Below are positions 6,198 to 30,983 of a stretch of 64,000 nt of DNA, piece by piece (within the stretch, counting starts at the first letter, position 1; each line of letters starts with the position of its first letter). Origin of the DNA: Paracoccaceae bacterium (GTDB taxonomy: Bacteria; Pseudomonadota; Alphaproteobacteria; Rhodobacterales; Rhodobacteraceae); contig JAGRDY010000031.1 of NCBI GenBank assembly GCA_020446815.1, positions 1 through 64,000 of the forward strand. The letters run 5' to 3'. Both the position numbers and the translations under genes were made by a program. The notes under the pieces were generated by a model, which was not told the DNA's origin, made no database searches, and saw only the letters and a program-made list of their open reading frames with translations.

Positions 6198-7559
6198 TCA
6201 ATCGAGCCCGGCACCCTCGGCGTTCAGGGCCGCGCGTACGTCTTCGCCGCTGACGTCGCGAAACCTCATCGCATTGCGCAGAACCATGTCGGCCGCGACG
6301 GCGGCGGCGTGACCGTAACCGAAGCACTGTGCGGTCACGCGCGCGGAGGCAAGCGCCTCGTGCTCGGCACTGAGGCAGCGTCCGGCCACGATGATGTTCT
6401 CGCCGGTTTCGGGAACCAGCGTGCCGTAGGGGATTTCGTAGAAATCGTCGAGCAGCCACTCGACCCGCGGCTTGGCGCCGGAATGCAGCTCGATCGGCCA
6501 CGGGCAGCGGACCACCCCGTCACGGTGCTTGCGCCGCTCGACCACGTCGGCATTTTCGAGCCGCTTGACGCCGACGACCGACCGGGTCTGGCGGATGCCG
6601 ACCTCGACGCCGGTATCGTTGACGAAACTGTCCTCGCATCCCGGCACCCTGTCTTTCAGGAACCGGGCGTATTCGCGCACCTGGTGGCGCGCGACGAGTT
6701 CCGCCTCGGTGTGATCGGCGGGGTCGGTGACATCCAGATCGCGGCCGTCCCGGCCGAGGATACGGGTTGCGTTGACCAGCAACTCGTTGGGACGGGAGGT
6801 TGAGAATATCCATATCTTCTTGCGCGGTAACTGGTAGCGTCCCGAGTTATCCGCCGCGATCAGCGCCTCCACGACATGTTCGGGGCTGATGGTGTTCTCG
6901 CCCCAGTATCCCAGGAAGCGATCGACATCGACGTTGCCCAGCCGAAAGATCATGGTCGGGTTCTGCATCACGCCGTTGCGGCCCCTGGTCGTCGCCCAGC
7001 CGGCGCGGTGCACGACATCGGCGTCGCCGCTGGCGTCCACCACCACCCGGGCCTCGATCCGGGCCAGCCCCGACTTCGTATCGACAATCAGCCCGCGCAC
7101 CGTATCGCCATCCCGCAGGACGCCGACGACCTGCGTGTGAAAGAGAATCTCGACGCCCGCGCCGGTAAGAAAGTCATCCGCCGTTTCGCGCCACACAAGC
7201 GGATCATGCGTGACCGTCCAGGTCTTGCCGTAGCGCTGGGGCTCGGTCAGGCCGCCCCTGGATGCGAGGCGCGCGCGGAACTCGTCGGCAAAGCCGAAGA
7301 CCACCTGTTCGGGCCGGTTGGTGTGTCGTTCGCTCGAAAGGAACAGCCCGCAGACCGTGCCCGACATGCCGGCCACCGCGCCGCCGCCGCAAAAGCCGTA
7401 GCGTTCGATCAGCAGGGTCCGGTGGCCCTTGCGCGCGAGGTTGGTGGCAGCCGATACCCCCGCAGCACCGCCCCCGGCGACCACTGCATCGACCGCAACG
7501 AGCAGCGGCAGCGCATGTTCATCGAGCACGTTGCGACTGGCATAGCGGTCTTCGGGCAT
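6198..7559 (-). CDS. FAD-dependent oxidoreductase (FAD_oxidored family)
   Basis: A 453-residue flavoprotein. Near the N-terminus lie the Rossmann glycines AVVAGGGAAGVSAATNLARKG and, just after, RYGFCGGGAVAG, a Cys-Gly loop common in this family. A further dinucleotide-binding segment is VVVDASGDADVVHRAG, and the C-terminus has the family motif IIVAGRCLSAEHEALASAR. Substrates in the family are diverse small organic molecules and often unknown. The gene ends five bases from the scarred Wzc relic, while its own C-terminus looks complete. Its 5' side faces a 384-base gap and then the MttB-like gene on the same strand, which suggests a shared catabolic role. Confidence 0.75.
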   Translation of the reverse strand: MPEDRYASRNVLDEHALPLLVAVDAVVAGGGAAGVSAATNLARKGHRTLLIERYGFCGGGAVAGMSGTVCGLFLSSERHTNRPEQVVFGFADEFRARLASRGGLTEPQRYGKTWTVTHDPLVWRETADDFLTGAGVEILFHTQVVGVLRDGDTVRGLIVDTKSGLARIEARVVVDASGDADVVHRAGWATTRGRNGVMQNPTMIFRLGNVDVDRFLGYWGENTISPEHVVEALIAADNSGRYQLPRKKIWIFSTSRPNELLVNATRILGRDGRDLDVTDPADHTEAELVARHQVREYARFLKDRVPGCEDSFVNDTGVEVGIRQTRSVVGVKRLENADVVERRKHRDGVVRCPWPIELHSGAKPRVEWLLDDFYEIPYGTLVPETGENIIVAGRCLSAEHEALASARVTAQCFGYGHAAAVAADMVLRNAMRFRDVSGEDVRAALNAEGAGLD

Positions 7560-7943
7560 GACGATCCTTTAGAGGGTAAGATCGGATTATACTGGGCGAT
7601 ATATCAGGTGGTAAGGGTTAATCAAAGACCTCTACATGACTGTCGGCCTTGGGTATTCTCAAAGTGGGTCATCGCTTGCCTTCAAGGCATGACGGCGGGG
7701 TATGGCGGTGCCGAGCTGCTCGGGAACATTGGCGACGGCGTCCAGAGCGGCAGGGTCGCCGCCGTCGTCGGGTAGAGCGGTGGCAAAGTCGCCACGGGCC
7801 AGATGATCACCGAGGTGTTTGAAGCCTTTCCTGTTTTCGATGCCGGCGATCGAATTTCGGCTGGCTGACAGCGCTTCGGGAACGGTGTGCCACCGAAACG
7901 GGCGCAAAACTGCGGCGCGGCCGCCCCTACGCGCCGATGGCTT
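7560..7943. other. 384-base intergenic stretch
   Basis: This gap separates two minus-strand genes. The part next to the oxidoreductase start (7561-7640) is AT-richer and probably contains its promoter. The part from about 7660 to 7900 is open in two minus frames (for example ENRKGFKHLGDHLARGDFAT), but I see no family, start signal or repeats. No terminator hairpin with a T-run is evident. Confidence 0.4.
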
Positions 7944-9530
7944 TCAGCCGCGCGGGCGCGGCCAGTCGGCATTGGGGCGCATCCGTTCGCGCGGCAGGCG
8001 CACGGGGAATTTTGCGCGAATCTCGTCGTCGATCGCGCGCGGGATGTGCTCCGGGTAGTGACTGGCGAGCGTTGCATCGACATGATCGATCGCGCGATCG
8101 AGCGCGGTCCGGCGGTCCTTCTCGGCCCACTCGCTGGGGCTCATCCGGTCGCCGAACCTCGGATAGACGTAGTCGCGCTCCATCAGGTCCATGGTCTGGC
8201 AATGCGCAAGGAAATGGCCGGGCCCGCCCACGCAGACCTCGCGGATGACATCGACCGAGAGGGTGTCGTCGGTCACCTCGATCCCGCGCACCGTTCGCAA
8301 TGCCGCCCCGACCGAGTCGTTGTCCATCGCCAGACTCTCGAGAGAAAATCCCATCAGCGAGGCGACCATGCCGCCCGCCTCATACATCAGGTTGGCGCCG
8401 GCATTGGCGGTGACGACGTGATTGAGGGCCTTCTCGTAGCCCGACTGGGCGTCCGGCACCTTGCTGTCGGCGATCCCGGCGGGGATGCCTGAAATCAGGC
8501 CGTAATAGCGGCCCATCTGGCCACAGGCCGCAGTCAGGAGCGCCTGCTCGCCGCTGCCGCAGCACATCGCCCCGGTGCGCAGGTCAGACACGAACGGCCA
8601 GAAGCCGATGATCACCGGATTGCCCGGTGCCACCGCCTCGACATAGATCGCGCCGGCCAGAAGCTCCGCGACGATCATCACCACGTTGCCGGCCAGTGCC
8701 GCCGGCCCGGTGGCGCCGGCCTGGCCAAGCGAGACCAGCATGATCGGCATCCCGGCCCGCGCGCCCACCTCGAGGCATCGGCAGCTGTCAGCCGCGAATT
8801 TCAGCGGCGAGACCGTGAAGCAGCACGACATCGATACGAACGGGCGTTCGCGCCACTGCCTTTCGCCGCCAACGATCCTGTGCATCACCGCGAGCGAGTC
8901 CTCGAGTTGGCGCACGCCGCCCCAACTGGTGCCGACATGTTTCGAGGTGCCGGCGAGGCTCGCGTAAAGGGTGTTGAAATCCATTTCGTAGAAGTCCTCG
9001 ATCTCGCGCGGGACCACGGTACGCTGAAAGAAATGGATATTGTCGAGCGTGTCGACGAGGCGCGCGCAGTCATAGAGGTCGTTGAGTGTCGAATTGCGGT
9101 AGGCGCCGGTGCGCGGATCGACCATGCTTACCGTCGCACCCGCCGTGCCGCAATAGAGCCGGCTGCCCTGCATGTGCATGTCGTGGCAGGGATCACGCCC
9201 GGCCAGCAGAAAGTCGCGATTGATGCGCGGCAGGTAATCCTCGACCAGCGCGCGCGGAAAGGTGATGCGGCCGTCGCGATAGACGCAGCCGATCCGGGTC
9301 AGATAGTCAACGGTCGAGGGCAGGCAATCACCGATGCCCACGGTCTCGAGCACGTCGAGCGCCGCGTGGTGGACGCGCACGACGTCGGCGTCGCTCAGCG
9401 GGCGGAAACGGCAGGCGCTGTCCATCCCGCCGCGAACCGGACGCATTTCGATCTCGCTCGGCGCAGCTCTCTGCGTCCGGCGCGCCGCGCGCCCGCCGCG
9501 CCTCGTTGTCGTAACCTGCATCTGGTTCAT
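7944..9530 (-). CDS. MttB-family (non-pyrrolysine) corrinoid-dependent methyltransferase homologue
   Basis: A 528-residue member of the trimethylamine methyltransferase family. In this superfamily the methyl group of a quaternary or tertiary amine (glycine betaine, carnitine, proline betaine, trimethylamine) is passed to a corrinoid protein. Family features are the N-terminal LSDADVVRVHHAALDVLETVG, the central LYCGTAGATVSMVD, and the Gly-rich barrel region VSLGQAGATGPAALAGNVV. No in-frame amber codon is present, so it belongs to the pyrrolysine-free branch. The start at 9530 is fixed by AAAGGAG nine bases upstream; longer reading runs antisense through the LysR gene. It is divergent from that regulator across 58 bases. 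No corrinoid protein gene is in the window. Confidence 0.8.
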   Translation of the reverse strand: MNQMQVTTTRRGGRAARRTQRAAPSEIEMRPVRGGMDSACRFRPLSDADVVRVHHAALDVLETVGIGDCLPSTVDYLTRIGCVYRDGRITFPRALVEDYLPRINRDFLLAGRDPCHDMHMQGSRLYCGTAGATVSMVDPRTGAYRNSTLNDLYDCARLVDTLDNIHFFQRTVVPREIEDFYEMDFNTLYASLAGTSKHVGTSWGGVRQLEDSLAVMHRIVGGERQWRERPFVSMSCCFTVSPLKFAADSCRCLEVGARAGMPIMLVSLGQAGATGPAALAGNVVMIVAELLAGAIYVEAVAPGNPVIIGFWPFVSDLRTGAMCCGSGEQALLTAACGQMGRYYGLISGIPAGIADSKVPDAQSGYEKALNHVVTANAGANLMYEAGGMVASLMGFSLESLAMDNDSVGAALRTVRGIEVTDDTLSVDVIREVCVGGPGHFLAHCQTMDLMERDYVYPRFGDRMSPSEWAEKDRRTALDRAIDHVDATLASHYPEHIPRAIDDEIRAKFPVRLPRERMRPNADWPRPRG

Positions 9531-9588
9531 TCGAGACACTCCTTTCGCTGCGGTCTGATCTCGCCGTCGCATTCTGCGCGGGGTGCAA

Positions 9589-10623
9589 ATGAGCGCAATT
9601 GACAGTTTTTGGACGATCGGTAACCATGGCTTACCAGTCACGCCGCCCGCCGCGACCGCGGGTCTCGAAGGAACAGGGCAGTTGGCCAGACATCCGTCTT
9701 TCCGGGCGTTGCCGCCGCTCAACACACTCAGGGGGTTCGAGGCGGCGGCGCGACTGTTGAACTTTCGCAGGGCGGCGGAAGAACTCAACCTGACGCATGC
9801 CGCAATCAGCCACCAGATGCGCCTGCTCGAGGGTGATCTGGGTTGCGCGCTATTCCGGCGCGAGGGGCGCGCGGTAGTGCTGACCGAGGAGGGCCGCATC
9901 TTTTACGACCATGCACGGCGGGCGCTGGATACCTTGGTGACCGGTGCCGGCATCATCCGCCGGTTTGGCCCGGAGGCCGATCTCAGAATCGAGACCTACA
10001 TCACCGTGGCTATCCGCTGGCTCTCGCCGCGATTGCCGCGGTTCCATGCGGCCCATCCCGAGATCAACTTCTCGGTCAACACAAGGCGCACGCAATGGTG
10101 GTTCGACGAGACCGACACCGATGTCGCCATCATGTATGTCGATCGCGATCTGCCGGCGAGCCTGCGGTCTAAGGTGCTGTTCGAAGGCACTCTCTACCCG
10201 GTCTGCAGTCCGTCGATCCTTGCCGAGCTGAGCCCGGTCGTGATGCCGGCCGATCTCCTGGGCCTGCCCCTGATCGAGGTCTCCTCGGCACCGAACGACT
10301 GGCGCGACTGGTTCCGCGCAGCAGGGGTCGAGAACGTGCCCACGCTCCGCTATACCAAGGTTGACACCTACGCGCTGGCGCTCGAGATGGCGATCACCGG
10401 CGCCGGGGTCGCGATGCTCAACGGCCCCTTCGCCGAAGAGGAACTGAGACGGCGCGAACTGGTGCTGCCGGTCGATCAGGTGGCGCGCTCGGGCGGCGAC
10501 TGGGCGGTGCTCTACCGGATCGACCGCGAACGCGACCACAAGATCCGCGCCTTCGTCAAATGGCTGGTCGAGGACGTTGCGGCCGACCGCAACCGGCGCG
10601 GGCCGGCCGGCGTTGCCCGGTGA
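9589..10623 (+). CDS. LysR-type transcriptional regulator, GcvA-like
   Basis: A 344-residue regulator. The winged HTH starts at about residue 40 (LPPLNTLRGFEAAARLLNFR, then HAAISHQMRLLEGDLG), followed by a LysR substrate-binding domain (RIETYITVAIRWLSPRLPRF). The GcvA subgroup typically controls amino-acid and amine degradation. About 37 residues precede the HTH, more than usual, so a start further in is possible. ATG 9589 is preferred to GTG 9583 because GCGGGG lies at the right distance. It is divergent from the MttB-like gene and is its likely regulator. Confidence 0.85.
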   Translation: MSAIDSFWTIGNHGLPVTPPAATAGLEGTGQLARHPSFRALPPLNTLRGFEAAARLLNFRRAAEELNLTHAAISHQMRLLEGDLGCALFRREGRAVVLTEEGRIFYDHARRALDTLVTGAGIIRRFGPEADLRIETYITVAIRWLSPRLPRFHAAHPEINFSVNTRRTQWWFDETDTDVAIMYVDRDLPASLRSKVLFEGTLYPVCSPSILAELSPVVMPADLLGLPLIEVSSAPNDWRDWFRAAGVENVPTLRYTKVDTYALALEMAITGAGVAMLNGPFAEEELRRRELVLPVDQVARSGGDWAVLYRIDRERDHKIRAFVKWLVEDVAADRNRRGPAGVAR

Positions 10624-10672
10624 GGCAGCCGCGCGCCCCGCGGGTCATCGCGCATCCGCTGTCAGCGGGCGG

Positions 10673-12127
10673 TCAAAACGCCTTGAGCCGTTTCATGCCG
10701 ACGTTCTTCGACTGGTAGTAGCTCGCCAGCGCCTCGACCCCCTTTTCCCGGCCGATGCCCGAGTTCTTGAAGCCGCCGAACGGGGTCTCGACGCCGCCCA
10801 CGCCCCATTCGTTGACATGGACCTGCCCGGCGTCGAGCCGTTCGGTCGTCCAGACCGCCCGGTCGAGATCGTTGGTGAACACCACCGCCGCCAGCCCGTA
10901 TTCGGTGCCGTTGGCGATCTCGACCGCCTCGCGCGGGTCGGAAAATTTCAGCACCGACAGCACCGGGCCAAATATCTCCTCGCGGTTGACCCGATCGTCC
11001 GGCGACACGTCCGCAAGGATTGTCGGAGCCATGAAATTGCCCTCGCGGTCGAGCTTGCGGCCCCCGGCCGCCGCGCGCGCGCCCTGCTGCACGCCGATCT
11101 GGGCATAGTTGTCGACGCGGGCGAGCTGGTCGGCCGAAATCAGCGGCGTGATGTCGGGGTCGTCCATCCCGGCGCCGATGGTCAGGCCCCCGGTCATCGT
11201 GACGAGCCGGTCCACCGTTTCGTCATAGACGCTGTCATGGACGACGAGGCGCGACATCGCATCGCAGCACTGACCGGAATTCATGAAGATTCCGGCCTGG
11301 GTCTGGGCCACGACATTGTCCATGTCGGCATCGGCATAGACGATGCCGGGGCTCTTGCCGCCAAGCTCCAGCACCGCCGGAATCAGGCTTTCGGCGGCGG
11401 CATGGGCGATCTTGCGGCCGGTGACGACCGAACCGGTGAAGACGATCTGGTCGATGCCGGAATGGCTGGCGAGCGCAGCACCCGCCTCGTGGCCGTAGCC
11501 GCAGATCAGGTTCACGGCCCCTTCGGGCAGGCCGATCTCTTCGGCGAGTTCGGCCAGAACGTAGCCCGCCGTCGAGTCAAGCTCGGGCAGTTTCACCACG
11601 CAGGCATTGCCGGCCGCGAGCGCCGCCGACAGCGAGCGTGCGACCATGTTCAGCGGGAAGTTCCACGGGATGATATGGGCGCTGACGCCGTAGGGGTAGG
11701 GGACCACATAATCGACATAGCCGTCGCCGAGGGGAATGTACTTTCCCTCGATCTGCGCGGCGAGACCGCCGTAATACTCGAAATATTTGGCCGAACCCTC
11801 GACCTCGCCTCGCGCCTCCGAAATGCGCTTGCCGGCGTCGAGCGAGATCAGCGTGGCGATCTCCTCGGACCGTTCGCGCAGCTTGCGTCCGATCTCGGCC
11901 ACCATGCGGCCGCGCGCCATCGGCCGCATGTCGACGAGCGCGCGCGAGTCGACGCAGCGGCGCGCGGCGGCGACGGCGCGGTCGACATCGGCGGCGGTCG
12001 CGCGCGCCACTTCCGCAAGTGGGCGGCCCGTCGCGGGATTCAGGAGCGTGATCCGCCCGCCGTCGGACCCGTCGACCCATTTGCCGCCGATATAGTTCCG
12101 CCAGTAATCCTTCATCGGTGTGCTCAT
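10673..12127 (-). CDS. NAD(P)-dependent aldehyde dehydrogenase
   Basis: A 484-residue ALDH-superfamily enzyme that oxidises an aldehyde to the acid. It has the family's NAD-binding and catalytic elements: IPWNFPLNMVARSLSAALAA, ELGGKSPGIVYADADM with the general-base Glu, and the nucleophile region FMNSGQCCDAMSRLVV with the catalytic Cys. It ends in the typical PFGGFKNSGIGREKGVEALA. ATG 12127 overlaps the TGA of the upstream flavoprotein gene by 4 bases and follows AAGGGAAA, so the two are translationally coupled. The aldehyde is probably released by, or derived from, a betaine or amino-alcohol; formaldehyde, betaine aldehyde and a semialdehyde are all possible. Confidence 0.9.
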   Translation of the reverse strand: MSTPMKDYWRNYIGGKWVDGSDGGRITLLNPATGRPLAEVARATAADVDRAVAAARRCVDSRALVDMRPMARGRMVAEIGRKLRERSEEIATLISLDAGKRISEARGEVEGSAKYFEYYGGLAAQIEGKYIPLGDGYVDYVVPYPYGVSAHIIPWNFPLNMVARSLSAALAAGNACVVKLPELDSTAGYVLAELAEEIGLPEGAVNLICGYGHEAGAALASHSGIDQIVFTGSVVTGRKIAHAAAESLIPAVLELGGKSPGIVYADADMDNVVAQTQAGIFMNSGQCCDAMSRLVVHDSVYDETVDRLVTMTGGLTIGAGMDDPDITPLISADQLARVDNYAQIGVQQGARAAAGGRKLDREGNFMAPTILADVSPDDRVNREEIFGPVLSVLKFSDPREAVEIANGTEYGLAAVVFTNDLDRAVWTTERLDAGQVHVNEWGVGGVETPFGGFKNSGIGREKGVEALASYYQSKNVGMKRLKAF

Positions 12128-14463: not shown

Positions 14464-14560
14464 GTTGGCCCCCACCGCGCCTGACAACCCCGGCAAGAAT
14501 AGAGGATTTGCGCCCGATACGCGGTACGGATAATCCTCATATGGACCATGACTCGAATTC

Positions 14561-15550: not shown

Positions 15551-15702
15551 CCGCCCGCGCGGCGCGGGGTGGCTGCCCCTGTTCGCGGTATTTGCATCCC
15601 CGATGAGAAATGGGAATATTCGCCCTGGGCGGACAACCTGCCTGATTCGATCCCCTCGTAGCCCCGCCGGGTGCGTGTCGGGGATGTGTTTTCCGTCAGC
15701 GG

Positions 15703-17972: not shown

Positions 17973-18065
17973 GGCGTCGGGCCCCGGGCGGCACCGCGCG
18001 GACTGGCCGGGTCGGCCGCGATGGGCGCTGCCCGCGCCAGTACGTTCAGGCGCGTTCGGGTTCGT

Positions 18066-19340: not shown

Positions 19341-19349
19341 GGTTTCCTC

Positions 19350-22668: not shown

Positions 22669-23252
22669 GACGTGCCCATCCTTGGTGCGCCGGCCAACCC
22701 CGGCCCCCGCCACAGGACCAGCGCCAGCACAGGTTCGTCATGGGTATCCATCGCGTGGGGCTGCAAGGGCGCATGGTGCCGCGTGCCCTCGGGGCCGATC
22801 ACCGCCGACGGCTGCCCTTCGGTGTGAAACTCGGCGGCGCCGGCGAGGATGTAGTAAAGTTCCTCTGCCTCGTGCAGATGAACGGGGTAATGCAGGCCCG
22901 CGCCCCACCACGCGAGGTAGGCGCGGGTGGCGTGTGACCCGAAGTGCCCGCCTGGCCCCACGATCTCGAACCAGCCGTAGCGGTTGAGGAAATCGCGCCC
23001 GACCTCAGCCTCGGTGTAGGTCTGTTGCCAGTGTGCATGGGGGGCCGCGGCCTTGACTGCGCGCACCACGGGCGCTGTCCGGGTCGACGTGCGCGCCGAC
23101 ATGGCCTGCAGAAGCGCGATGCCCGGGATGGCCAGCGGCTCGCAGGGCCGGGGGGGCGCAGCCTCGGGCCATTCCGCAAAGTCGCGCAGCGCTGGCACCT
23201 CGCGAACCAGATCGCCGGCGGCCGTCTTCAGCGTTTCAAGGGCCGCGTTCAT
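22665..23252 (-). CDS. dddQ: Cupin DMSP lyase, DddQ-like
   Basis: A 195-residue single-domain cupin. The metal-site motif G-x5-HxH-x3-E-x6-G is complete: Gly119, His125, His127, Glu131, Gly138 (HYPVHLHEAEELYYILAG). A fourth ligand, His166, lies in QPHAM. Other features shared with the DMSP lyase family are HWQQTYTEAEVG, FLNRYGWFEIVGP and the terminal LALVLWRG. These metalloenzymes cleave dimethylsulfoniopropionate to dimethyl sulfide and acrylate. Length matches DddQ. It sits between an oxidoreductase and three enolases with 4-base overlaps on both sides. A shift to a different betaine-like substrate is possible. Confidence 0.8.
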   Translation of the reverse strand: MNAALETLKTAAGDLVREVPALRDFAEWPEAAPPRPCEPLAIPGIALLQAMSARTSTRTAPVVRAVKAAAPHAHWQQTYTEAEVGRDFLNRYGWFEIVGPGGHFGSHATRAYLAWWGAGLHYPVHLHEAEELYYILAGAAEFHTEGQPSAVIGPEGTRHHAPLQPHAMDTHDEPVLALVLWRGPGLAGAPRMGTS

Positions 23253-24325
23253 GGCACCACCACGATGTTGCCGGTGTGGCGCTTTTCGATGAAGGCCGCC
23301 TGCGCCTCGCGAAGCCGGTTCAGCGGATAGGTCGCGGCCAGCACGGGGCGGATCTCGCCGCGTTCGATGTAGCGCACGACATCGGCGAAGACCCCGCGCG
23401 GGATGACGGTCGAGCCGGTGAAGGTCAGGTCGCGCAAATAAAGCGTGCGCAGGTCGAGCGTGACCATGGGGCCGGCGATCGCGCCCGAACAGGTATAGCG
23501 CCCGCCCCGTTCGAGCACGTCGATCAGCCGCGCCCAGTAGGGGCCGCCGACGATGTCGGCCACCACCGTCACCTTGTCACCCCCGAGCGCCGCGCGCAGA
23601 TCGCCGGGCGCGCGCGGCAGGATGCGGTCGGGGCCGAGCCGGGCGACATCGGCGTGCTTGGCCTCGGACGCCATGGCGATCACCCGCGCGCCGCGGCGCC
23701 GGGCAAGCTGCACCAGCGCGCCCCCCACGCCGCCCGACGCGCCGGGCACCAGCACCGTGTCGCCGGCGCCGACGCCCGCGCGCGCCAGCATCCCCTCGGC
23801 GGTGGTGTAGGAGCACGAAAAGGTCGCCAGTTCAGCATCGCTCAGATCCGACTGGACGACCGCCAGGTTGCGCGCGTCGATGGTGGTGAACTCGGCAAAG
23901 CCGCCGTCGATCTCCGAGCCGAAATAGCCCGCCTTGTCCTTGTTGTCGGGATCGGACCAGTCGCGCAGCCAGGCGTCGACCATCACCCGCCGGCCGACCA
24001 GGGCGGGATCCGCGCCTTCGCCGACGGCCACGACCTCGCCCACCGCGTCGGCGCCCTGGATGCGCGGAAAGACGATGGGCGCACCGCCCCAGCTCGGGTC
24101 CTGCTCGCCCACATCGGTGTAGGCGTCGCCGGTCGTCGCCTCGTCCACCGTCTTGGAGTACCACCCCGAGCGCGTGTTCACGTCGGTGTTGTTGAGCCCG
24201 CAGGCGCGCACCCGGATCAGCGCCTCCATCGCGCCCGGCTCGGGCCTCGGCCAGTCCTCGTGCCAGACATATCTGTCGAGCCCGCCATGACCGGTCAGCA
24301 CCATTGCCTTCATCGTCGCGGTCAT
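23249..24325 (-). CDS. MDR-family NAD(P)H oxidoreductase (zinc ADH/quinone reductase type)
   Basis: A 358-residue medium-chain dehydrogenase/reductase. The N-terminal GroES-like domain has RACGLNNTDVNTRSGWY, where the Asn-Thr-Asp replaces the usual zinc-binding Cys-His, as in quinone or enoyl reductases. The Rossmann domain carries TVLVPGASGGVGGALVQLAR and the C-terminus IERGEIRPVLAATYPLNRL. In the context of a DMSP lyase it might reduce an acrylate-derived or other enoyl intermediate, but it is not obviously AcuI. It overlaps both neighbours by 4 bases. A second ATG at 24313 could also be used. Confidence 0.75.
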   Translation of the reverse strand: MTATMKAMVLTGHGGLDRYVWHEDWPRPEPGAMEALIRVRACGLNNTDVNTRSGWYSKTVDEATTGDAYTDVGEQDPSWGGAPIVFPRIQGADAVGEVVAVGEGADPALVGRRVMVDAWLRDWSDPDNKDKAGYFGSEIDGGFAEFTTIDARNLAVVQSDLSDAELATFSCSYTTAEGMLARAGVGAGDTVLVPGASGGVGGALVQLARRRGARVIAMASEAKHADVARLGPDRILPRAPGDLRAALGGDKVTVVADIVGGPYWARLIDVLERGGRYTCSGAIAGPMVTLDLRTLYLRDLTFTGSTVIPRGVFADVVRYIERGEIRPVLAATYPLNRLREAQAAFIEKRHTGNIVVVP

Positions 24326-26769
24326 TTCGCGGCCACCTTTTCGACATCGGTGCGCGGCAACAGGTTTTCGGGGTCGTAGGCAGGCCGGTCCAGCACGCGT
24401 GCCTTGCGCGGCGCGCCCATGATGACGACGTCGAGTTCGCGGCCGGGGGCGGCATGGTCGGGGCGCACATAGGCGAAGGCCAGCAGTTTGCCCACACCGT
24501 GCCCGAAGGCGATAGAGCTGACCGTGCCGATCTGCCGTCCCGCCGCCAGCACCGCCTCGCCGCCATTGCCATCCGAGAGCCCGTCGGCCTCGACCTCAAG
24601 ATAGGCGCATGTCCAGCGCGGGCCGACCGCCAGCGCGGCCTCGGTCGCGGGCCTGCCCCGGAAATCCTTGTCCATGCGCACGAAGCGCATCACGCCGGCC
24701 TCGGGTAGCGTCACCTCGTTGGTGAGTTCCCCCGCCCCCTTGAAGCCCTTCTCCATCCGCATCGCGTTCATCGCGAACGAGCCGTATTCGGCCAGCCCGT
24801 GCGCCCGGCCCGCCGCCTTGAGCGCCCGAAACGCACCAAGGATCGCGTCGCGGGGCCCGTGAAACTCCCATCCGAGTTCGCCCGCGTAGGACATGCGCAT
24901 CGCCCAGAGCCCGTGGCCGCCCACCGCGATCTTTCGCGCGCGCATCCACCCGAAGCCCGCGTTCGACAGATCCGCGCCGGTGCAGGGCGCGAGGATGTCG
25001 CGCGCCTTCGGGCCGTTCAGCGCAAGCGCGCCCCAGTCGCTCGAGCGGTTGGTGATCGTGACATCCTCGCCCTTGCGGGCGAAGGTCAGGTAATCGACCA
25101 GCCGTTGTTCGAAGAATGCAGCGCAGACGAGATAGAGGCGATCCGTCGCCAGCCGGACGACGGTGGTCTCCAACTCGATCCGGCCATTGTCATTCAAAAG
25201 ATGGGTGAGCCCGATTCGCCCCTCCGCGGGCAGCCTGTTCGGCACCAGCCGGTCCAGGAAGCCGGCGGCATCCGGACCCGAGATCTCGACTTTGGCAAAG
25301 GCCGAGATGTCCATGATCCCGGCGCGTTCGCGCACTGCACGCACTTCCGCGCCGACAATGTCGTGCAGCGCGGTGCGGCGAAAGCCGTAGATGTCGCGCG
25401 CCTCGATGCCCTCGGGGGCGAACCAGCGCGGGCGCTCATCGCCGTAGACCTCCTCGAACACCGCGCCCGCGGCCTTGAGATCGTCATAGAGCGGCGAGGG
25501 CCTGACCGGCCGCGCCGCCAGCCGGTTGAAATGCGGAAACGGGATTTCGTGGCGCAGAAGGTAGTCTTCCTTCGCCTTGACGATCTGATAGCCCTGGTCG
25601 GCATAGGGGCCGAACCGGCGCGGGTCGAATTCGCGCATGTTGATGTCGGCGGCGCCGTGCACCATCCAGCGGGCCAGTTCGCGGGTCAGCCCGGGCCCCC
25701 AGCCGATGCCGATCTGGGTGCCGCAGCAGCACCAGTAGTTGCGCAGGCCGGGCGCCGGGCCGATCAGCGGGTTGCCGTCGGGCGGATGGGAAATGGCGCC
25801 GTGCACCGCGCGCTTGATGCCCAGATCGGCCAGCACCGGCATCCGGCCCATCGCATTCTCGAGCCAGGGCATGATGCGGTCGTAATCGGGCTCGAAGAGC
25901 TCGTGCTCGGCCTCCCAGGGGCAGTGATCCTCCCACACGGTGTTGGGGTTGGCCTTTTCGTAGATGCCGATGAGCCCGGATTTCTGCTCCATGCGGATGT
26001 AGCCCGACACCAGCCGGTCGTCGCGCACCACCGGCAGCTCGCTGTCGAGGGCCTGGAATTCGGGCACCGTGTCGGTGATCAGGTAGTGGTGCGTCATCGA
26101 GGTTGCCGGCAGATCATAGCCCGACCACGCCGCCATCTGCCGGGCATAGGTGCCGCCGGCATTGACCACGTGTTCGCAGACGAAATCGCCCTGTTCGGTC
26201 GCGACCAGCCAGTCGCCGTTCGCGCGCCGGGTGACGTCGGTGGCGCGGCACTGGCGGATGATCCTGACGCCCAGCTGCCGTGCGCCCCTGGCCAGCGCAA
26301 AGGCGGCGCCGGCGGGATCGACGTGGCCGTCGTCGGGCGTGTGCAGCGCCGCCCTGACGCCGTCGAGATTGTAGAAGGGATGGAGCTCGCGGATGCGCTC
26401 GGGGCCGACGATTTCCATCGGAAAGCCCAGGCCCCTGCCGACCGAGACGGTCTGGCCGAGCCAGTCCATCTCGTCCTCGGTATAGGCCAGCCGCAACGAT
26501 CCGCAGCCATGCCATGTGACAGACTGACCGGTCTCTGCCTCCAGCACCCTGGAATAGAGGTCGATGTTGTAACCCACGCATTTGCCCAGCGCGAAACTGG
26601 AGGTCGAATGGGTGATCTGCCCTGCCGCGTGCCAGGTGGACCCGCTGGTCAGCTCGGCCTTTTCCAGCAGCACCACATCGGTCCAGCCCTCGTGCGCGAG
26701 GTGATAGGCGAGGCCGCACCCCATGATGCCACCGCCGATGACGACCACTCGGGCGTGCGCCTGACTCAT
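24322..26769 (-). CDS. Dimethylglycine/sarcosine dehydrogenase-like FAD-GcvT protein
   Basis: An 815-residue flavoprotein that oxidatively demethylates an N-methyl amino acid and passes the C1 unit to tetrahydrofolate. It has a Rossmann motif (VVVIGGGIMGCGLAYHLAHEG) and the flavin-attachment loop TSGSTWHAAG with His47. An FAO_M region (RWFAPEGIEARD) and a GcvT domain with ALALNGPKARDILAP and MSYAGELGWEFHG follow, then the GcvT C-terminal barrel (GVGKLLAFAYVRPDHA). It is the first gene of the seven-gene operon and faces the RpiR gene across 67 bases. The start at 26769 has AGGA upstream; the longer frame overlaps the regulator. Confidence 0.88.
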   Translation of the reverse strand: MSQAHARVVVIGGGIMGCGLAYHLAHEGWTDVVLLEKAELTSGSTWHAAGQITHSTSSFALGKCVGYNIDLYSRVLEAETGQSVTWHGCGSLRLAYTEDEMDWLGQTVSVGRGLGFPMEIVGPERIRELHPFYNLDGVRAALHTPDDGHVDPAGAAFALARGARQLGVRIIRQCRATDVTRRANGDWLVATEQGDFVCEHVVNAGGTYARQMAAWSGYDLPATSMTHHYLITDTVPEFQALDSELPVVRDDRLVSGYIRMEQKSGLIGIYEKANPNTVWEDHCPWEAEHELFEPDYDRIMPWLENAMGRMPVLADLGIKRAVHGAISHPPDGNPLIGPAPGLRNYWCCCGTQIGIGWGPGLTRELARWMVHGAADINMREFDPRRFGPYADQGYQIVKAKEDYLLRHEIPFPHFNRLAARPVRPSPLYDDLKAAGAVFEEVYGDERPRWFAPEGIEARDIYGFRRTALHDIVGAEVRAVRERAGIMDISAFAKVEISGPDAAGFLDRLVPNRLPAEGRIGLTHLLNDNGRIELETTVVRLATDRLYLVCAAFFEQRLVDYLTFARKGEDVTITNRSSDWGALALNGPKARDILAPCTGADLSNAGFGWMRARKIAVGGHGLWAMRMSYAGELGWEFHGPRDAILGAFRALKAAGRAHGLAEYGSFAMNAMRMEKGFKGAGELTNEVTLPEAGVMRFVRMDKDFRGRPATEAALAVGPRWTCAYLEVEADGLSDGNGGEAVLAAGRQIGTVSSIAFGHGVGKLLAFAYVRPDHAAPGRELDVVIMGAPRKARVLDRPAYDPENLLPRTDVEKVAAK

Positions 26770-26836
26770 GCGATCCGTCCTATCACACAAATGTTTTCTA
26801 TGGACATTCGTATGAGACAATTGTAGCGTCGTCAAT
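26770..26836. promoter_or_regulatory. Divergent promoter and operator region between the two catabolic operons
   Basis: These 67 AT-rich bases must hold both promoters. Two palindromic elements stand out: AATGT (26790-26794) with ACATT (26804-26808), and a perfect ACAATTGT (26817-26824). CAAATGTT occurs at 26788-26795 and again inside the start of the regulator gene at 26847-26854. I infer these as binding sites for the RpiR-type regulator encoded next door. Confidence 0.45.
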
Positions 26837-27748
26837 ATGAAACAAACAAATGTTCCAAGCCCGGTAACGGCCGCCGACCTGCTCACGCAGCTACAGTCGG
26901 CACGCTCGGACATGACGCCGGAACTTCAGAAGATTTCCGGATTTCTGTTGGAGAGTCCGAACGAGATCGGGGTCTGCTCGATTCGTCAGCTCGCCGCCAA
27001 GGCGGGGGTCAAGCCGAACACTCTGGTACGTTTGTCCCGTGTGCTTGGCATGGACAGTTATGAATCGTTCCGCGAGGTGTTCCGCGCCGACATCCGGCAG
27101 GGGCGCGAGACCTTTCCCGACCGCGCGCGCTGGCTGCAATCGCTGGCGCAGCGCGGCGAGATGGGCGCGCTCTACGCCGCCAGCGCCGAATCGGCCATCG
27201 ACAATATCGAGAGCCTCTTTGCCTCGACCGACCACCATCTGATCGAGGCCGCCGCCCGCGACATCGTCGCAGCGCGGCGCTGCTTCGTCCTGGGGGTGGG
27301 CGTGAACAACGCGATCGCCCACAACTTCGCCTATCTCGCCGGCATGGCGATCGACGGCGTTCACGCCCTGCCACACGGCGGCACCCAGCCGGTGGACGGC
27401 ATCGCCCGCGCCGGCGCAAGCGACATCCTGATCGCCGTGACCTTTCGCCCCTACCGGCGCGAGATCGTCGAAGCGGTCGACGCGGCCCGCGCGCAGGGCG
27501 TGCCCGTCATTGCCGTGTCCGACAGCGCGGCCTCGCCGATCATGGTCGACGCGCAGCATCGTTTTGTCGTGCCGACCGACACGCCGCAGTTCTTCATCTC
27601 GACGATCGCGCTCAATGCGTTCTTCGAGGTGCTCATCGCCTTCATCATCGCCGAGGCGGGCGAGGACGCTGTCGCCTCGGTCGATGCCTACCACGCCCGG
27701 CGGCAGGCCCTGGGCATCTATTTCGACGAAAGGGACCGGCAGACATGA
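26837..27748 (+). CDS. RpiR/MurR-family transcriptional regulator
   Basis: A 303-residue regulator with an N-terminal HTH_6 domain (SVCSIRQLAAKAGVKPNTLV-like region at about 47-65, read as GVCSIRQLAAKAGVKPNTLV) and a C-terminal SIS domain (RRCFVLGVGVNNAIAHNFAY; ILIAVTFRPYRREIVEAVDA; VIAVSDSAASPIM). SIS domains in this family bind phosphosugars, but members near amine-catabolic genes probably sense other ligands. It overlaps the downstream Rieske gene by 4 bases and is divergent from the DMGDH operon, so it likely controls both. Confidence 0.88.
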   Translation: MKQTNVPSPVTAADLLTQLQSARSDMTPELQKISGFLLESPNEIGVCSIRQLAAKAGVKPNTLVRLSRVLGMDSYESFREVFRADIRQGRETFPDRARWLQSLAQRGEMGALYAASAESAIDNIESLFASTDHHLIEAAARDIVAARRCFVLGVGVNNAIAHNFAYLAGMAIDGVHALPHGGTQPVDGIARAGASDILIAVTFRPYRREIVEAVDAARAQGVPVIAVSDSAASPIMVDAQHRFVVPTDTPQFFISTIALNAFFEVLIAFIIAEAGEDAVASVDAYHARRQALGIYFDERDRQT

Positions 27749-28863
27749 CCGTTCAGGACACCCCGGTTCCGGTTCGCTCGCTCGAGGCGCGCTACTATAC
27801 CGATCCCGGGATTTTCACCTGCGAGCGCGAGGGGCTGCTTGCCCGGACCTGGCATTTTGCCGGCCACGAGGCCCAGGTGCGGGAGGCGGGCGACTATTTC
27901 ACATTCGAGCTGGCGGGCGAAAGCCTCTTCTGCATCCGGGGGCGCGATGGCGCGCTGCGCACATTCTACAACGTCTGCCAGCACCGCGCGCATCAGCTTA
28001 TGCAGGGCTCCGGCACCACCCGTGTCGTCGTCTGCCCCTATCACGCCTGGACCTACGAGCTGTCGGGGGAACTGCGCTCGGGGCCGAACATCAAGGCGGT
28101 GCCGGGCTTCGACCGCAGCGAGATCTGCCTGACCGAAGTTCGCACCGAGAGCTTTCACGGCTTCATCTTCGTCAATTTCGACGATGACGCGGCGTCGATG
28201 GACGTGTGGTATCCGGGCGTGCGCGCCGAACTGGCCGAATACGTGCCCGGGATCGACGCGCTGGAGCCGCTGGAATGGGTCGAAATCCCCGAGCGCTGCA
28301 ACTGGAAGGTCTCGGTCGAGAACTATTCCGAGTGCTATCACTGTTCGCTCAACCACCCGACTTTCTCAACCGGGGTGATCCGGCCCGAAACCTATGACAT
28401 CCAGCCGCTGGCCAGGGGCTATGTCCTGCGCCATACGACCGAATGCCAGGACCTGTCCAAGATGACCTACCCGATCGACACCTCGGTGCCGCACGGGGGC
28501 GAATACCGATCGTTCTTCCTCTGGCCGATGTTCTCGTTCCAGGTCTATCCGGGCAATGTGCTGAACACCTATCACTGGCGCGCCCACGACGTGGATCACT
28601 GCACGGTCTGGCGCGGCTGGTACACGCCGGGCGGCGTCGACAGCGAGGTGATCCGCCGCCTCGCTGCGCAGGACCGGGTAACGACGGTCGAGGAAGACAT
28701 CTCGCTTGTCGAAAGCGTCGCGCGGGGGCTGAAAAGCCACGGCTACCGTCCCGGCCCGCTGGTGATCGATCCCGCCTGCGGGCTGAACTCCGAACATTCG
28801 ATCCGCACGCTTCAGCAATGGATGCGCGAGGCGGTCGACGCACCCGAGCCGAGCGAGGCGTGA
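27745..28863 (+). CDS. Rieske non-haem iron oxygenase alpha subunit, betaine-demethylase type
   Basis: A 372-residue terminal oxygenase. The Rieske cluster ligands are Cys78-x-His80 and Cys97-x2-His100 (YNVCQHRAHQL, VVCPYHAW). The mononuclear iron site is NYSECYHCSLNHP, with His199 and His204. Glu196 takes the place of the Asp that usually bridges the two centres, as in carnitine and betaine oxygenases. Such enzymes N-demethylate glycine betaine or stachydrine, releasing formaldehyde, or cleave carnitine. No reductase partner is encoded within the window. It overlaps the RpiR gene by 4 bases and the CMD gene by 1. Confidence 0.85.
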   Translation: MTVQDTPVPVRSLEARYYTDPGIFTCEREGLLARTWHFAGHEAQVREAGDYFTFELAGESLFCIRGRDGALRTFYNVCQHRAHQLMQGSGTTRVVVCPYHAWTYELSGELRSGPNIKAVPGFDRSEICLTEVRTESFHGFIFVNFDDDAASMDVWYPGVRAELAEYVPGIDALEPLEWVEIPERCNWKVSVENYSECYHCSLNHPTFSTGVIRPETYDIQPLARGYVLRHTTECQDLSKMTYPIDTSVPHGGEYRSFFLWPMFSFQVYPGNVLNTYHWRAHDVDHCTVWRGWYTPGGVDSEVIRRLAAQDRVTTVEEDISLVESVARGLKSHGYRPGPLVIDPACGLNSEHSIRTLQQWMREAVDAPEPSEA

Positions 28864-29264
28864 TGATGGCCGATTTCGACGACGATCTGTTCGAAAAGGG
28901 GTTGGCGCGGCGCAAGGCGACGCTTGGCGCCGCCTATGTCGAGCGAAACCTCGCGGCCGCCGACGACTTCACCCGCCCGTTCCAGCACGCGATGACCGCC
29001 TGGTGCTGGGGGTTCGGCTGGGGCGACGACGCCATCGACGCCAAGACCCGCTCGATGATGAACCTCGCCATGATCGGCGCGCTCGGCAAGATGCACGAAT
29101 GGGAAACCCATTGCCGGGGCGCAATCAACAACGGCGTCAGCCGCGACGAGATACGCGCTATCATTCATGTGATCGGCATCTACTGCGGCGTGCCACAGGC
29201 CCTGGAATGTTTCCGTGTGGCGCGCAAGGTGCTCGACGAAGCAACCAAGGAGGGCAAGGCCTGA
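28863..29264 (+). CDS. Carboxymuconolactone decarboxylase (CMD) family protein
   Basis: A 133-residue all-helical protein with the CMD signature MHEWETHCRGAINNGVSRDE followed by IRAIIHVIGIYCGVP. It lacks the CxxC of AhpD-like members, so a lyase/decarboxylase type is likelier than a peroxidase. Substrate unknown. The ATG at 28863 overlaps the Rieske stop by one base; a second ATG directly follows. It belongs to the RpiR-led operon. Confidence 0.8.
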   Translation: MMADFDDDLFEKGLARRKATLGAAYVERNLAAADDFTRPFQHAMTAWCWGFGWGDDAIDAKTRSMMNLAMIGALGKMHEWETHCRGAINNGVSRDEIRAIIHVIGIYCGVPQALECFRVARKVLDEATKEGKA

Positions 29265-29420
29265 ACGCTCGTGAAAGCTTCGCGCAGGGTGCGCAGCTTT
29301 GCCCCGTTTTCTGACTCCCGGCGCCCCGGCTGCGGGCCGTGGCGCCGGGTGCCCGACCGCCAGCGCCATCCCGGTCTTGCCAGAGGGCGATACCCAGTCC
29401 CGCAGGGAGGAGAGAAAGAC

Positions 29421-30983
29421 ATGACCACGCGACAAAACACATACCCCGGCCTGCCGTTCACGCGGCGCGGTGCGCTGGGTGTGCTGGGCGGCGGGGCGCT
29501 TGCGGCCGGGCTGATCGGCCCGGGCGCTGTCCGCGCCCAGACGCCGAAAAAAGGCGGTACGCTCAGGATAGGTATGGACGGCGGCGGCACCAGCGACTCG
29601 CTCGATCCGACAACCTATTTCTACTACCACATGTACACGGTCGGCTTCACGCTTGGCAACACGCTGGTCGAACTCGATGCGACGAAGCAGCCGGTCCCCG
29701 AACTCGCCGAAAGCTGGGAGGGCACACCCGACGCCAAGCGCTGGGTGTTCAAGATGCGCAAGGGGGTGGAGTTCCACAACGGCAAGACCGTCACCGCCGC
29801 CGATGCCGCCTATTCGCTCAACCGCCACATCGCCCCCGACTCGAAATCAGCCGCCAAGGGCTTTCTCCAGGGTGTTACCTCGATCCGCGCGGATGGCGAC
29901 AACGTGATCATCGAGCATGAGACCGGCGACGCCGACATGCCGAGCATCATGGGCCAATACCACCTGGTGATCGTGCCGGACGGCTTTGACGACTGGTCGG
30001 GCTTCATCGGCTCGGGCCCTTACATGCTCGACAGCTTCGATCCGGGCGTGCGCTTCACCGCCAGCCGCAATCCCAACTACTGGAAGCCCGATCGCGCCTG
30101 GGTCGACAAGGTTGACCTGTCCTTCATCCTCGATCCCACCGCGCGTGCCTCGGCGCTGATGACCGGCGGTGTCGACATCATCGACTATGTCGACACCAAG
30201 ATTGTCGACCGGATCAAGGCGATGAACCGCTTCCAGATCATCGAGAACATCGGCCTCGCGTATCATGAGTCGGTGATGGACACGCGCGCCAAGCCCTTCG
30301 ACAGCAACGATGTGCGCGAGGCGGTGAAGTTCGCGATCAACCGCGAGGAGCTGGTCGAAAAGGTCTATCACGGCTACGGCACCGTCGGCAACGATCACCC
30401 GGTGCCGCCCAACGACCCGTTCTTCAACAGCGAGTTGCCGCAGCGCCCCTTTGATCCCGACAAGGCGCGCTGGCACCTCAAGCAGGCCGGGCTCGACAAG
30501 ATCGACATCGAGCTCGCGGCGGCCGACGGCGCCTTCACCGGCGCGGTCGATGCCGCGGTGCTGATGCAGGCTAGCGCCGACGGCACCGGCGTCAACATCG
30601 AAGTCGACCGCGTGCCCAACGACAGCTACTGGTCGGATGTCTGGATGAAACGGCCCTACTGCGTGTCGAACTGGGGCGTACGTCCGACGCCGAGCATGAT
30701 GTTCTCGGTCGCCTTTGCCTGCGAGGCACCATGGAACGAAACCTTCTGGTGCAACGACCAGTTCACCCAGCTGCTCAACCAGGGCAAGGTCGAGACCGAT
30801 TTCGCCAAGCGCAAGCAGATTTTCGGTGAGATGCAGCAGATGGTGCACGCAAATGACGGCAACGCGATCTTCGTCTTTCCGTCCACGCTCGACGGCTACG
30901 CCGAGACGGTGCAAGGCGCCGCGCCGGATGCGGTCGCGCTGCTGATGGGCTGCAGGGTGGCCGAACGGGTGTGGATGGCATAG
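29421..30983 (+). CDS. ABC transporter substrate-binding protein, family 5 (SBP_bac_5), Tat-exported
   Basis: A 520-residue periplasmic binding protein. The N-terminus has a twin-arginine signal (PFTRRGALGVLGGGALAAGL, then Ala-rich to VRAQ). The mature protein has the family features KKGGTLRIGMDGG, DSLDPTTYFYYHMY and the SBP_5 block MRKGVEFHNGKTVTAADAAY. Such proteins capture peptides, opines or other amino compounds. GGGAGGAGAG precedes ATG 29421. No permease or ATPase genes follow, which is unusual, since SBP_5 genes normally head five-gene operons. It likely supplies the substrate of the adjacent enzymes. Confidence 0.85.
   Translation: MTTRQNTYPGLPFTRRGALGVLGGGALAAGLIGPGAVRAQTPKKGGTLRIGMDGGGTSDSLDPTTYFYYHMYTVGFTLGNTLVELDATKQPVPELAESWEGTPDAKRWVFKMRKGVEFHNGKTVTAADAAYSLNRHIAPDSKSAAKGFLQGVTSIRADGDNVIIEHETGDADMPSIMGQYHLVIVPDGFDDWSGFIGSGPYMLDSFDPGVRFTASRNPNYWKPDRAWVDKVDLSFILDPTARASALMTGGVDIIDYVDTKIVDRIKAMNRFQIIENIGLAYHESVMDTRAKPFDSNDVREAVKFAINREELVEKVYHGYGTVGNDHPVPPNDPFFNSELPQRPFDPDKARWHLKQAGLDKIDIELAAADGAFTGAVDAAVLMQASADGTGVNIEVDRVPNDSYWSDVWMKRPYCVSNWGVRPTPSMMFSVAFACEAPWNETFWCNDQFTQLLNQGKVETDFAKRKQIFGEMQQMVHANDGNAIFVFPSTLDGYAETVQGAAPDAVALLMGCRVAERVWMA

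Follow-up and report, generated by a model that had tools for sequence, protein, structure and literature searches.

Two adjacent, putative betaine-type units in a Paracoccaceae genome: a recurrent RpiR-headed operon with an optional DddQ-type cupin, and a rarer module

A stretch of 64,000 nucleotides from a Paracoccaceae bacterium (hereafter the window), which sits on contig 17 of a draft genome (3.47 Mb, 37 contigs), contains between positions 6198 and 30983 a run of 19 genes that make up two independently inherited betaine-type units lying side by side, not one supercluster. The right unit (18066-29264) is a divergon headed by the gene for an RpiR-family regulator and is seen across Rhodobacterales and in a Lotus mesorhizobium; the left unit (6198-17972) is a rare module, FADox-EnoA-EnoB, here joined by MttB, DMGDH1 and ALDH. 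We propose, with a probability of roughly 0.55, that both are betaine units and that the right one would act by N-demethylation of a carboxylate betaine, probably of the proline type, followed by two-lysine enolase chemistry and transamination. The genes stand in the order FADox, MttB, LysR1, ALDH, DMGDH1, LysR2, EnoA, EnoB, AT3, EnoC, EnoD, EnoE, DddQ, QOR, DMGDH2, RpiR, Rieske, CMD and SBP_bac_5. An earlier sequence-only reading had listed an MttB-type methyltransferase, two DMGDH-like enzymes, a Rieske oxygenase, a dimethylsulfoniopropionate (DMSP) lyase, five enolases, an aldehyde dehydrogenase (ALDH), an aminotransferase, a binding protein, two LysR regulators and one RpiR regulator; all are present with strong family matches, and the bounds it drew coincide with the stops of FADox (6198) and the SBP gene (30983). 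To its list we add the PF12831 flavin adenine dinucleotide (FAD)-dependent oxidoreductase at 6198, an MDR reductase (QOR) and a CMD-family protein. The right unit comprises the following features.

18066-19340, minus strand: AT3, a class-III aminotransferase of the glutamate-1-semialdehyde aminomutase branch, right backbone (PF00202, E = 4e-58; NF000818, 372 bits, under the cut-off of 398)
19350-20453, minus strand: EnoC, the core enolase of the right backbone, with both lysines and the metal ligands
20450-21565, minus strand: EnoD, an optional enolase that pairs with QOR, relative of 2qdd and 3eez
21562-22668, minus strand: EnoE, an optional enolase that pairs with DddQ, relative of 2rdx
22665-23252, minus strand: DddQ-type cupin, optional (PF16867, E = 4e-19; solved DddQ chains, E = 3e-57)
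23249-24325, minus strand: QOR, an MDR-superfamily reductase/dehydrogenase, optional (ADH_N and ADH_zinc_N)
24322-26769, minus strand: DMGDH2, predicted FAD- and folate-dependent (GCV_T) demethylating oxidoreductase, right backbone (DAO, E = 2e-62; GCV_T, E = 2e-63)
26817-26835, minus strand: putative conserved promoter/operator element TTGACGACGCTACAATTGT, between RpiR and DMGDH2
26837-27748, plus strand: RpiR-family regulator (HTH_6 and SIS)
27745-28863, plus strand: Rieske oxygenase alpha subunit, right backbone (Rieske and Ring_hydroxyl_A; Group V Cys-x-x-Cys)
28863-29264, plus strand: CMD-family protein, PcaC-like (PF02627, E = 9e-19; PcaC model, 121.5 bits, under the cut-off of 155.7; candidate starts 28860, 28863 or 28866)

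The minus arm, from DMGDH2 to AT3, consists of seven genes with five overlapping junctions and a single gap of 9 bases (the starts of EnoE and DMGDH2 being approximate), and both junctions of the plus arm (RpiR, Rieske, CMD) overlap, so that 7 of the 8 junctions in the divergon do so. With EnoE as the query, 173 relatives were confirmed among GTDB genomes, and the loci of the best 80 of these (the EnoE loci) show a recurring order, viz., CMD-(ALDH)-Rieske-RpiR and, divergent from it, DMGDH2-QOR-(DddQ)-EnoE-EnoD-EnoC-AT3. Because a set of loci chosen by EnoE is biased, a census was anchored on DMGDH2 in a sample of 295 genomes of the family (294 genera), where an orthologue occurs in 47 genomes, our own included; genes were counted within 12 kb in the other 46 loci (cupins anywhere in the locus), and 35 of these 46, all from other genomes, have at least 6.5 kb on either side and are termed well-flanked. 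The backbone genes are found in most of the well-flanked loci (Rieske 33, RpiR 33, EnoC 31, AT3 30), and the remaining genes in fewer: CMD 25, QOR 24, EnoD 22, DddQ-type cupin 14, ALDH 13 and EnoE 12. EnoE is present in 10 of the 14 loci with DddQ vs 2 of the 21 without it (Fisher P = 3e-4), and EnoD in 20 of the 24 loci with QOR vs 2 of the 11 without it (Fisher P = 4e-4), both P values ignoring shared ancestry. Given these counts and pairings, the right operon is a fixed core with two optional pairs, and DddQ sits in the rarer pair. A minimal set of Rieske, DMGDH2, RpiR, one enolase, AT3, ALDH and CMD is found in Sulfitobacter SK012, Mesorhizobium and Roseovarius THAF8; QOR is present in the first two of these loci and absent from the third, and no DddQ match was found in any of the three.

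Several further genes accompany the operon elsewhere. The Mesorhizobium cluster adds ETF and a protein with Pyr_redox_2 and Reductase_C domains, which would make a fitting reductase for the Rieske oxygenase; an SBP relative (56%) also adjoins this cluster, and none of the 46 census loci has an SBP gene at 40% identity or more within 12 kb of DMGDH2. In 31 of the 80 EnoE loci (e.g., L051:1250-2104) a conserved family of 285 residues, absent from the window and with no Pfam or NCBIfam match, lies between Rieske and CMD; in its AlphaFold model (pLDDT 83) it is similar to 4ix1, an unnamed protein of Rhodococcus, and to arylmalonate decarboxylase/maleate isomerase, and, judged by the start of the sequence, it also occurs beside an operon-free DddQ in L124. 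A sulfotransferase-like (PF19798) gene adjoins this family in 29 of the 80 loci (e.g., L030:2900-3694), and a gene of the glutathione-dependent formaldehyde-activating enzyme (GFA) family adjoins the Rieske gene in 6 (e.g., L082:3426-3893), which fits with formaldehyde release.

The sequence-only reading had taken the 25 kb for a single supercluster and held that independent distribution of its sub-operons would speak against this. The sub-operons are indeed distributed independently, and we therefore regard them as two separate units. In the EnoE loci, the left-half genes do not accompany the right unit within 10 kb on either side, save for MttB, which lies beyond AT3 at 47-48% identity in L073 and L077 and is present at 24% in L013. 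In the census, MttB occurs in 3 of the 35 well-flanked loci, only one of them exceeding 50% identity (51%, in L179, which has no Rieske gene beside DMGDH2). That the whole 25 kb works as one functional supercluster seems to us very improbable. The halves are adjacent and both betaine-type, two loci have MttB at 47-48% beyond AT3, a DMGDH2-like gene (50%) follows the MttB gene in Roseovarius indicus, the window ALDH (51-56% identical to the ALDHs of the EnoE loci) could serve the right unit, and genome G004 holds both halves. However, in G004 they lie on different contigs, and six sampled genomes besides our own have both an EnoE orthologue (at least 74% identity) and MttB, none with the two within 200 kb on one contig; the clean case of separation is G073 alone (nearest pair 274 kb apart on one contig), the other five being split over contigs, some of which are short. 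Moreover, EnoA is present in just 3 of 149 family and 2 of 385 class genomes (our own included) vs 47 of 295 for DMGDH2, and the conserved element is found within the window only in the right divergon.

This element, TTGACGACGCTACAATTGT, lies on the minus strand at 26817-26835 in the 70-base gap between RpiR and DMGDH2 (approximate start). When up to 1 mismatch is allowed, the pattern TTGACNANNNTACANNTGT matches the genome at a single place, which is this site, and does so without a mismatch; the expected number of matches of this type in the window at up to 2 mismatches is 0.11. In 51 of the 107 loci where RpiR and DMGDH2 diverge, the strict form occurs in the gap, always oriented toward DMGDH2; outside the gap these loci contain it only once. 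Such counts reflect in part the homology of the loci, and a genome may have entered them twice. The Mesorhizobium locus carries the element too. Two observations tell against the element as a unique mark of the operon, namely that the strict form is missing from 56 of the 107 loci and that a reversed control pattern likewise has one genome match. Because of this control the pattern alone is weak, and its position in the gap is the stronger evidence. The right operon is apparently regulated, with RpiR predicted to bind at 26817-26835.

The Rieske protein carries ENYSECYHCSLNH at residue 192, i.e., the Group V Cys-x-x-Cys beside the mononuclear iron site, and the pair is retained in 106 of 107 Rieske relatives (a set of both named and unnamed loci, in which a genome may appear twice). 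Such a pair is described for some Group V Rieske enzymes acting on quaternary amines, of which Stc2 (stachydrine) and CntA have been solved (PMC10952381). Identity with the glycine betaine monooxygenase GbcA was considered and rejected, the score being 146 bits against an NF058607 cut-off of 670. The GbcA/DMGDH pathway for glycine betaine likewise runs from a Rieske oxygenase to DMGDH-type demethylation; the right unit differs in adding enolases and an aminotransferase, and in lacking an adjoining reductase subunit, no Rieske reductase gene being recognised in the region. Both DMGDH1 and DMGDH2 have the DAO and GCV_T domains. In mitochondrial DMGDH the histidine of WHAAG binds FAD covalently; DMGDH2 has this motif, and W[H/Y]AAG is present in 116 of 116 relatives.

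EnoC, EnoD and EnoE belong with the two-lysine MLE-type enzymes, defined by lysines on strands 2 and 6 and Asp/Glu/Asp metal ligands. Both lysines and all three ligands are present in 102 of 102 EnoC relatives and 103 of 103 EnoE relatives; in EnoD relatives both lysines and one ligand are kept in 92 of 93 and the other two ligands in 93 of 93. Their solved relatives are 4mgg, 4e8g, 2qdd and 2rdx, of which 4mgg is a cis-3-hydroxy-L-proline dehydratase and 4e8g, which marks the branch of the epimerase HpbD, acts on hydroxyproline betaine; 4mgg is the nearest characterised solved relative of EnoC (E = 2e-85) and shares its lysines and metal ligands. A tree of 60 sequences puts EnoC in one clade (100/100) with no solved structure in it, and 2qdd and 3eez inside EnoD (100/99); 4e8g is a lone long branch at the root with which no window enolase groups, a placement subject to the long-branch warning. 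The operon of Roseovarius nubinhibens (L079) encodes enolases that are themselves solved structures (2rdx, 100%; 2qdd, 99.7%; 2pce, 99.7%), for which the PDB molecule names are generic superfamily names.

In the scheme that we infer for the right unit (reactions, step order, regulator binding and substrate alike), the Group V Rieske oxygenase would take one N-methyl group off a carboxylate betaine, and the N-methyl group or groups still left would be stripped by DMGDH2, through oxidation with FAD and transfer onto folate. EnoC, metal-dependent and with its two lysines, would then abstract the alpha-proton and so epimerise or dehydrate the skeleton, after which AT3 would move or remove the freed amine and an ALDH oxidise the semialdehyde. 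QOR with EnoD, and DddQ with EnoE, may allow the backbone to take in additional isomers or derivatives, the DddQ step being possibly a metal-assisted beta-elimination or isomerisation. For 3-hydroxyproline betaine as an example, demethylation would be followed by dehydration to pyrroline-2-carboxylate (equivalent to 5-amino-2-oxopentanoate), transamination and oxidation to 2-oxoglutarate; this scheme employs every backbone gene and leaves CMD without a role.

Proline-type betaines such as 3-hydroxyproline betaine are the likeliest substrates because of the enolase branch (that of 4mgg and 4e8g) and of two plasmid loci, L091 and L090. The Paracoccus plasmid locus L091 has a gene annotated as HpbA (N-methyl-L-proline demethylase) together with a PF16867 cupin only distantly related to DddQ (about 35% identity to related DddQs over some 90 residues), ETF, QOR (49%) and an enolase that shares 76% identity with 2ps2. 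In the tree, the relatives of this enolase are extra, DddQ-linked enolases of roseobacters; enolases of this type occur in 11 of 133 compared loci, 10 of which have a DddQ-type cupin. The Leisingera plasmid locus L090, in which no DddQ-type cupin was found, has a Rieske-ALDH-QOR-enolase set (26, 49, 51 and 37% identity). At a distance of 3 to 12 kb from this set stand genes (DHDPS-like, ALDH and FAD oxidoreductase) that by annotation resemble a hydroxyproline operon, and the locus also has stretches of 58 and 81 residues that are 74 and 62% identical to 4e8g. These two pieces (L090:1347-1750) are unannotated, stand between annotated genes and are possibly a broken gene.

The hpb system of proline-betaine catabolism was reportedly worked out by Zhao in 2013 and Kumar in 2014 in Paracoccus and Pelagibaca. 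It likewise joins betaine demethylation to a two-lysine MLE-type enolase (PMC4113996), and the HpbA-annotated Paracoccus locus likewise has a PF16867 cupin, QOR and an enolase. The right unit differs from hpb in having three enolase types, an aminotransferase in the backbone and an RpiR regulator in place of LysR/TetR; none of the 19 genes matches the HpbA-type (Oxidored_FMN) N-methylproline demethylase, and DMGDH2 is found instead. Three suggestions of the sequence-only reading, namely betaine-type catabolism, alpha-carbon (enolase) chemistry and its hint at a (hydroxylated) proline betaine, are strengthened by the Group V cysteine pair, the DMGDH-like enzymes, the kinship of the enolases with the solved hydroxyproline and hydroxyproline-betaine enzymes, the BCCT betaine transporter that accompanies one relative of the left module, and the Paracoccus locus.

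A number of observations weigh against this assignment. DMGDH1 has AYAAG in place of WHAAG; EnoE joins 4mgg in the tree (97/89), a grouping flagged as possible long-branch attraction; and membership of the cis-3-hydroxy-L-proline dehydratase family was rejected for the three enolases, which score 348 (EnoC), 306 (EnoD) and 406 (EnoE) bits against an NF043002 cut-off of 500. Since these scores fall below the NCBIfam cut-off, EnoC, EnoD and EnoE are, on present sequence comparison, relatives and not members of that family, and the operon further differs from the hydroxyproline dehydratase systems in having no proline-racemase-type gene, none being found in the operon or in the genome. AT3 and ALDH suit a linear betaine equally well (e.g., via gamma-aminobutyrate, GABA); ALDH gives its highest scores with models of betaine-aldehyde and aminobutyraldehyde dehydrogenases, none of which reaches its cut-off (BADH comes first in NCBIfam, with 435 bits against 669), and occurs in only 13 of the 35 well-flanked loci.

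AT3 and these ALDH scores make the linear betaine the main rival: the right unit would degrade gamma-butyrobetaine, carnitine or a beta-amino-acid betaine via an omega-amino acid (GABA, for instance) on which AT3 and a semialdehyde dehydrogenase would act, with the enolases taking a beta-hydroxy or alpha-branched form. A class-III transaminase and an ALDH would follow naturally on full demethylation to a primary amine, and in L087 AT3 is replaced by another class-III enzyme, one that passes the PRK06062 model. Nonetheless, the enolases group with solved enzymes of (hydroxy)proline and its betaine, and proline-betaine genes adjoin the same accessory set in Paracoccus; we consider the linear route rather unlikely and favor a proline-type betaine.

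DddQ is reportedly known from Todd in 2011 and Li in 2014 as the DMSP lyase of roseobacters, and the family of DddQ-type cupins is said, to go by the title of a 2018 paper by Lei, to hold enzymes of unknown function, which casts doubt on a DMSP-lyase role for every one of its cupins. The cupin of the window is complete and of the same type as the roseobacter DddQ (4la2, 5jso). It has the PF16867 fold and keeps the metal/catalytic residues (His, His, Glu and Tyr of motif 1, His of motif 2 and a second Tyr): Y120, H123, E129, Y131 and H163 are found in 68 of 68 sequences and H125 in 67 of 68, the window included. Ruegeria copies from the loci compared here reach 74% identity with the solved DddQ (4la2/5jso), so that the right unit very likely represents the operon type from which the DMSP lyase studied experimentally comes. 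The window gene differs from the known case in being an optional part of a betaine-type operon and in having no adjoining AcuI-like or acrylate gene; QOR was rejected as an AcuI-type acrylate partner (37 bits against a cut-off of 440).

DddQ is dispensable to the right operon, and its link with it is real and not exclusive. At least one DddQ-type cupin occurs in 52 of the 80 EnoE loci (short contigs included). In the family sample of 295 genomes, 48 have a DddQ-like gene, 47 DMGDH2 and 24 both (hypergeometric P = 5e-10, ancestry ignored), and 18 of the 30 best DddQ loci, our own included, have QOR, an enolase, DMGDH2 or AT3 within 1.5 kb. Arguing against a tight link, only 21 of 59 DddQ-like places have an orthologue of DMGDH2 within 15 kb, and the other 12 of the 30 best loci have none of the four genes within 1.5 kb. 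One of these 12 is cut by the contig end, one has ALDH and one CMD alongside, and inspection of the open reading frames (ORFs) by eye revealed no shared context around 11 of the 12. DddQ-type genes thus live elsewhere too. A plasmid search with the window DddQ gave no match at E = 1e-15, though the Paracoccus plasmid has a PF16867 protein.

There is scarcely any likelihood, in our judgment, that the right unit serves catabolism of DMSP or another sulfonium compound with DddQ as the key enzyme. PMC5395565 reports that dddQ mutants make less dimethyl sulfide (DMS), by 97% in R. pomeroyi and by 20% in R. nubinhibens, and that DMSP induces dddQ; the active site, too, is fully kept. The same source, however, gives DddQ a Km of 22 mM for DMSP, and Rieske, DMGDH, enolase and aminotransferase proteins have no place in DMSP cleavage. 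In the legume symbiont Mesorhizobium the backbone is present and no DddQ was found by annotation or tblastn; together with the presence of DddQ in just 14 of the 35 well-flanked and 52 of the 80 EnoE loci, this weakens the earlier suggestion of a sulfonium compound as the main substrate. The MDR028 gene (SPO1593, ISM_14095) is, according to PMC3338564, linked to dddQ and probably co-transcribed with it, and the R. nubinhibens copy fails to relieve acrylate sensitivity. In PMC12582016 the related DddK adds amines, though not proline, to acrylate with formation of C-N bonds; therefore, C-N chemistry is within reach of the cupin fold. We tentatively raise, at less than even odds, a further-reaching possibility: both in its origin and in its physiology, DddQ would be an accessory enzyme of the betaine operon that carries out a beta-elimination (C-O or C-N) or an isomerisation, and part of the DMS would come from a side reaction with an abundant look-alike of its substrate; the operon would then be an undescribed route for proline-type betaines, giving functions to solved enolases known only by superfamily names, viz., 2qdd, 2rdx and 2pce (and 3eez by clade).

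The left unit and the gene that follows the right one comprise the following features.

6198-7559, minus strand: FADox, FAD-dependent oxidoreductase, left unit (PF12831, E = 3e-114)
7944-9476, minus strand: MttB-superfamily methyltransferase, left unit (PF06253, MTTB, E = 7e-102); the coordinates are the stretch searched, the start being uncertain and the first ATG of the coding part slightly upstream
9583-10623, plus strand: LysR1 regulator, divergent from MttB, start uncertain (Pfam HTH_1 and LysR_substrate)
10673-12127, minus strand: ALDH, left unit (PF00171, E = 7e-155), overlapping DMGDH1 by 4 bases
12124-14463, minus strand: DMGDH1, left unit (Pfam DAO, FAO_M and GCV_T)
14561-15550, plus strand: LysR2 regulator, GcvA-like (Pfam; NCBIfam GcvA model, 220 bits, under the cut-off of 288)
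15703-16836, plus strand: EnoA, enolase superfamily, left unit (MR_MLE_C, E = 3e-31; nearest solved structure 4jhm, E = 2e-74)
16833-17972, plus strand: EnoB, enolase superfamily, left unit (nearest solved structure 3sjn, E = 6e-67), overlapping EnoA by 4 bases
29271-30983, plus strand: SBP_bac_5 solute-binding protein (PF00496, E = 2e-74), start possibly 29421

We read this left unit as a second, rare betaine-type module in which MttB may replace the Rieske oxygenase. Besides EnoA, FADox is found in 3 and DMGDH1 in 2 (the second at 42%) of 149 family genomes; MttB is common (87 of 149). EnoA and FADox are neighbors in both other genomes where the two were seen: G580, of another family, has FADox-EnoA-EnoB-Rieske oxygenase, and G004 has EnoA-BCCT-FADox with MttB (45%) and LysR (37%) about 12 kb off, as well as a minimal right unit (Rieske-RpiR divergent from DMGDH2-EnoC-AT3). 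There are also single finds, FADox only in G057 and EnoA only in G123. The left unit would be an analogue built on FADox-EnoA-EnoB, with MttB possibly standing where a relative has a Rieske oxygenase; parallels are the LysR-MttB-DMGDH arrangement of Roseovarius indicus and L179. At the alignment columns where EnoC-E carry their two lysines, neither EnoA nor EnoB has one. Pyrrolysine-type MttB genes have an in-frame amber codon; identity with this trimethylamine methyltransferase was rejected for the window MttB, which has an open frame without an internal stop and scores 366 bits with TIGR02369 (cut-off 525). As described in PMC12478193, MtgB of the roseobacter glycine-betaine methyltransferase system MtgBCD is a non-pyrrolysine, aerobic relative in the MttB superfamily. 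There the corrinoid-protein gene mtgC lies beside mtgB; the window MttB, in contrast, has no PF02310 match on its contig, the four matches in the genome being on four other contigs. Three further MttB-superfamily genes occur in our own genome, on contigs 22, 34 and 13 (46-52% identity to that of the window).

Third-position GC content is 0.79-0.91 in 17 of the 19 gene frames; EnoB was not in the computation, and the value for CMD, 0.65, was computed on an over-long ORF only. EnoB, the fifth enolase, was recovered from a longer frame that the ORF list begins at 16158; the ORFs 16809-17786 (minus) and 17111-18091 (plus), with no family match, were rejected as genes, the real gene there being EnoB in another frame. 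A long N-terminal domain of MttB was likewise discarded as an artefact of using the first start codon of the ORF list. A GNVR and AAA_31 protein of the chain-length/tyrosine-kinase type (4214-6190) ends right before the region and marks its left border; about 820 bases with no accepted gene (30984-31806) separate the SBP gene from a GST gene (31807-32577), and a tandem pair of TrkH-type cation transporter genes lies at 35550-38488.

No description of the right operon was found in the open-licence literature, subscription papers lying outside the search; there, SPO1589-SPO1593 and ISM_14095 appear in PMC3338564 only, and SPO1594 and SPO1595 in none of the matches listed. The right unit is seemingly a common, undescribed betaine-type operon in which DddQ is optional. 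Its DMGDH2 has an orthologue in 47 of 295 family genomes; the operon extends to a legume symbiont and supplies a genomic context for three solved enolases (2qdd, 2rdx, 2pce), and concrete substrates and gene removals become testable in model roseobacters. Since a widespread betaine-type operon carries DddQ as an optional part, the natural role of this enzyme may need re-examination. Metagenome surveys count dddQ as a gene for DMSP cleavage (e.g., PMC8520302); if the betaine operon is one home of DddQ, with a backbone that often lacks it, such counts may reflect nitrogen-osmolyte turnover as well as the potential for DMS.

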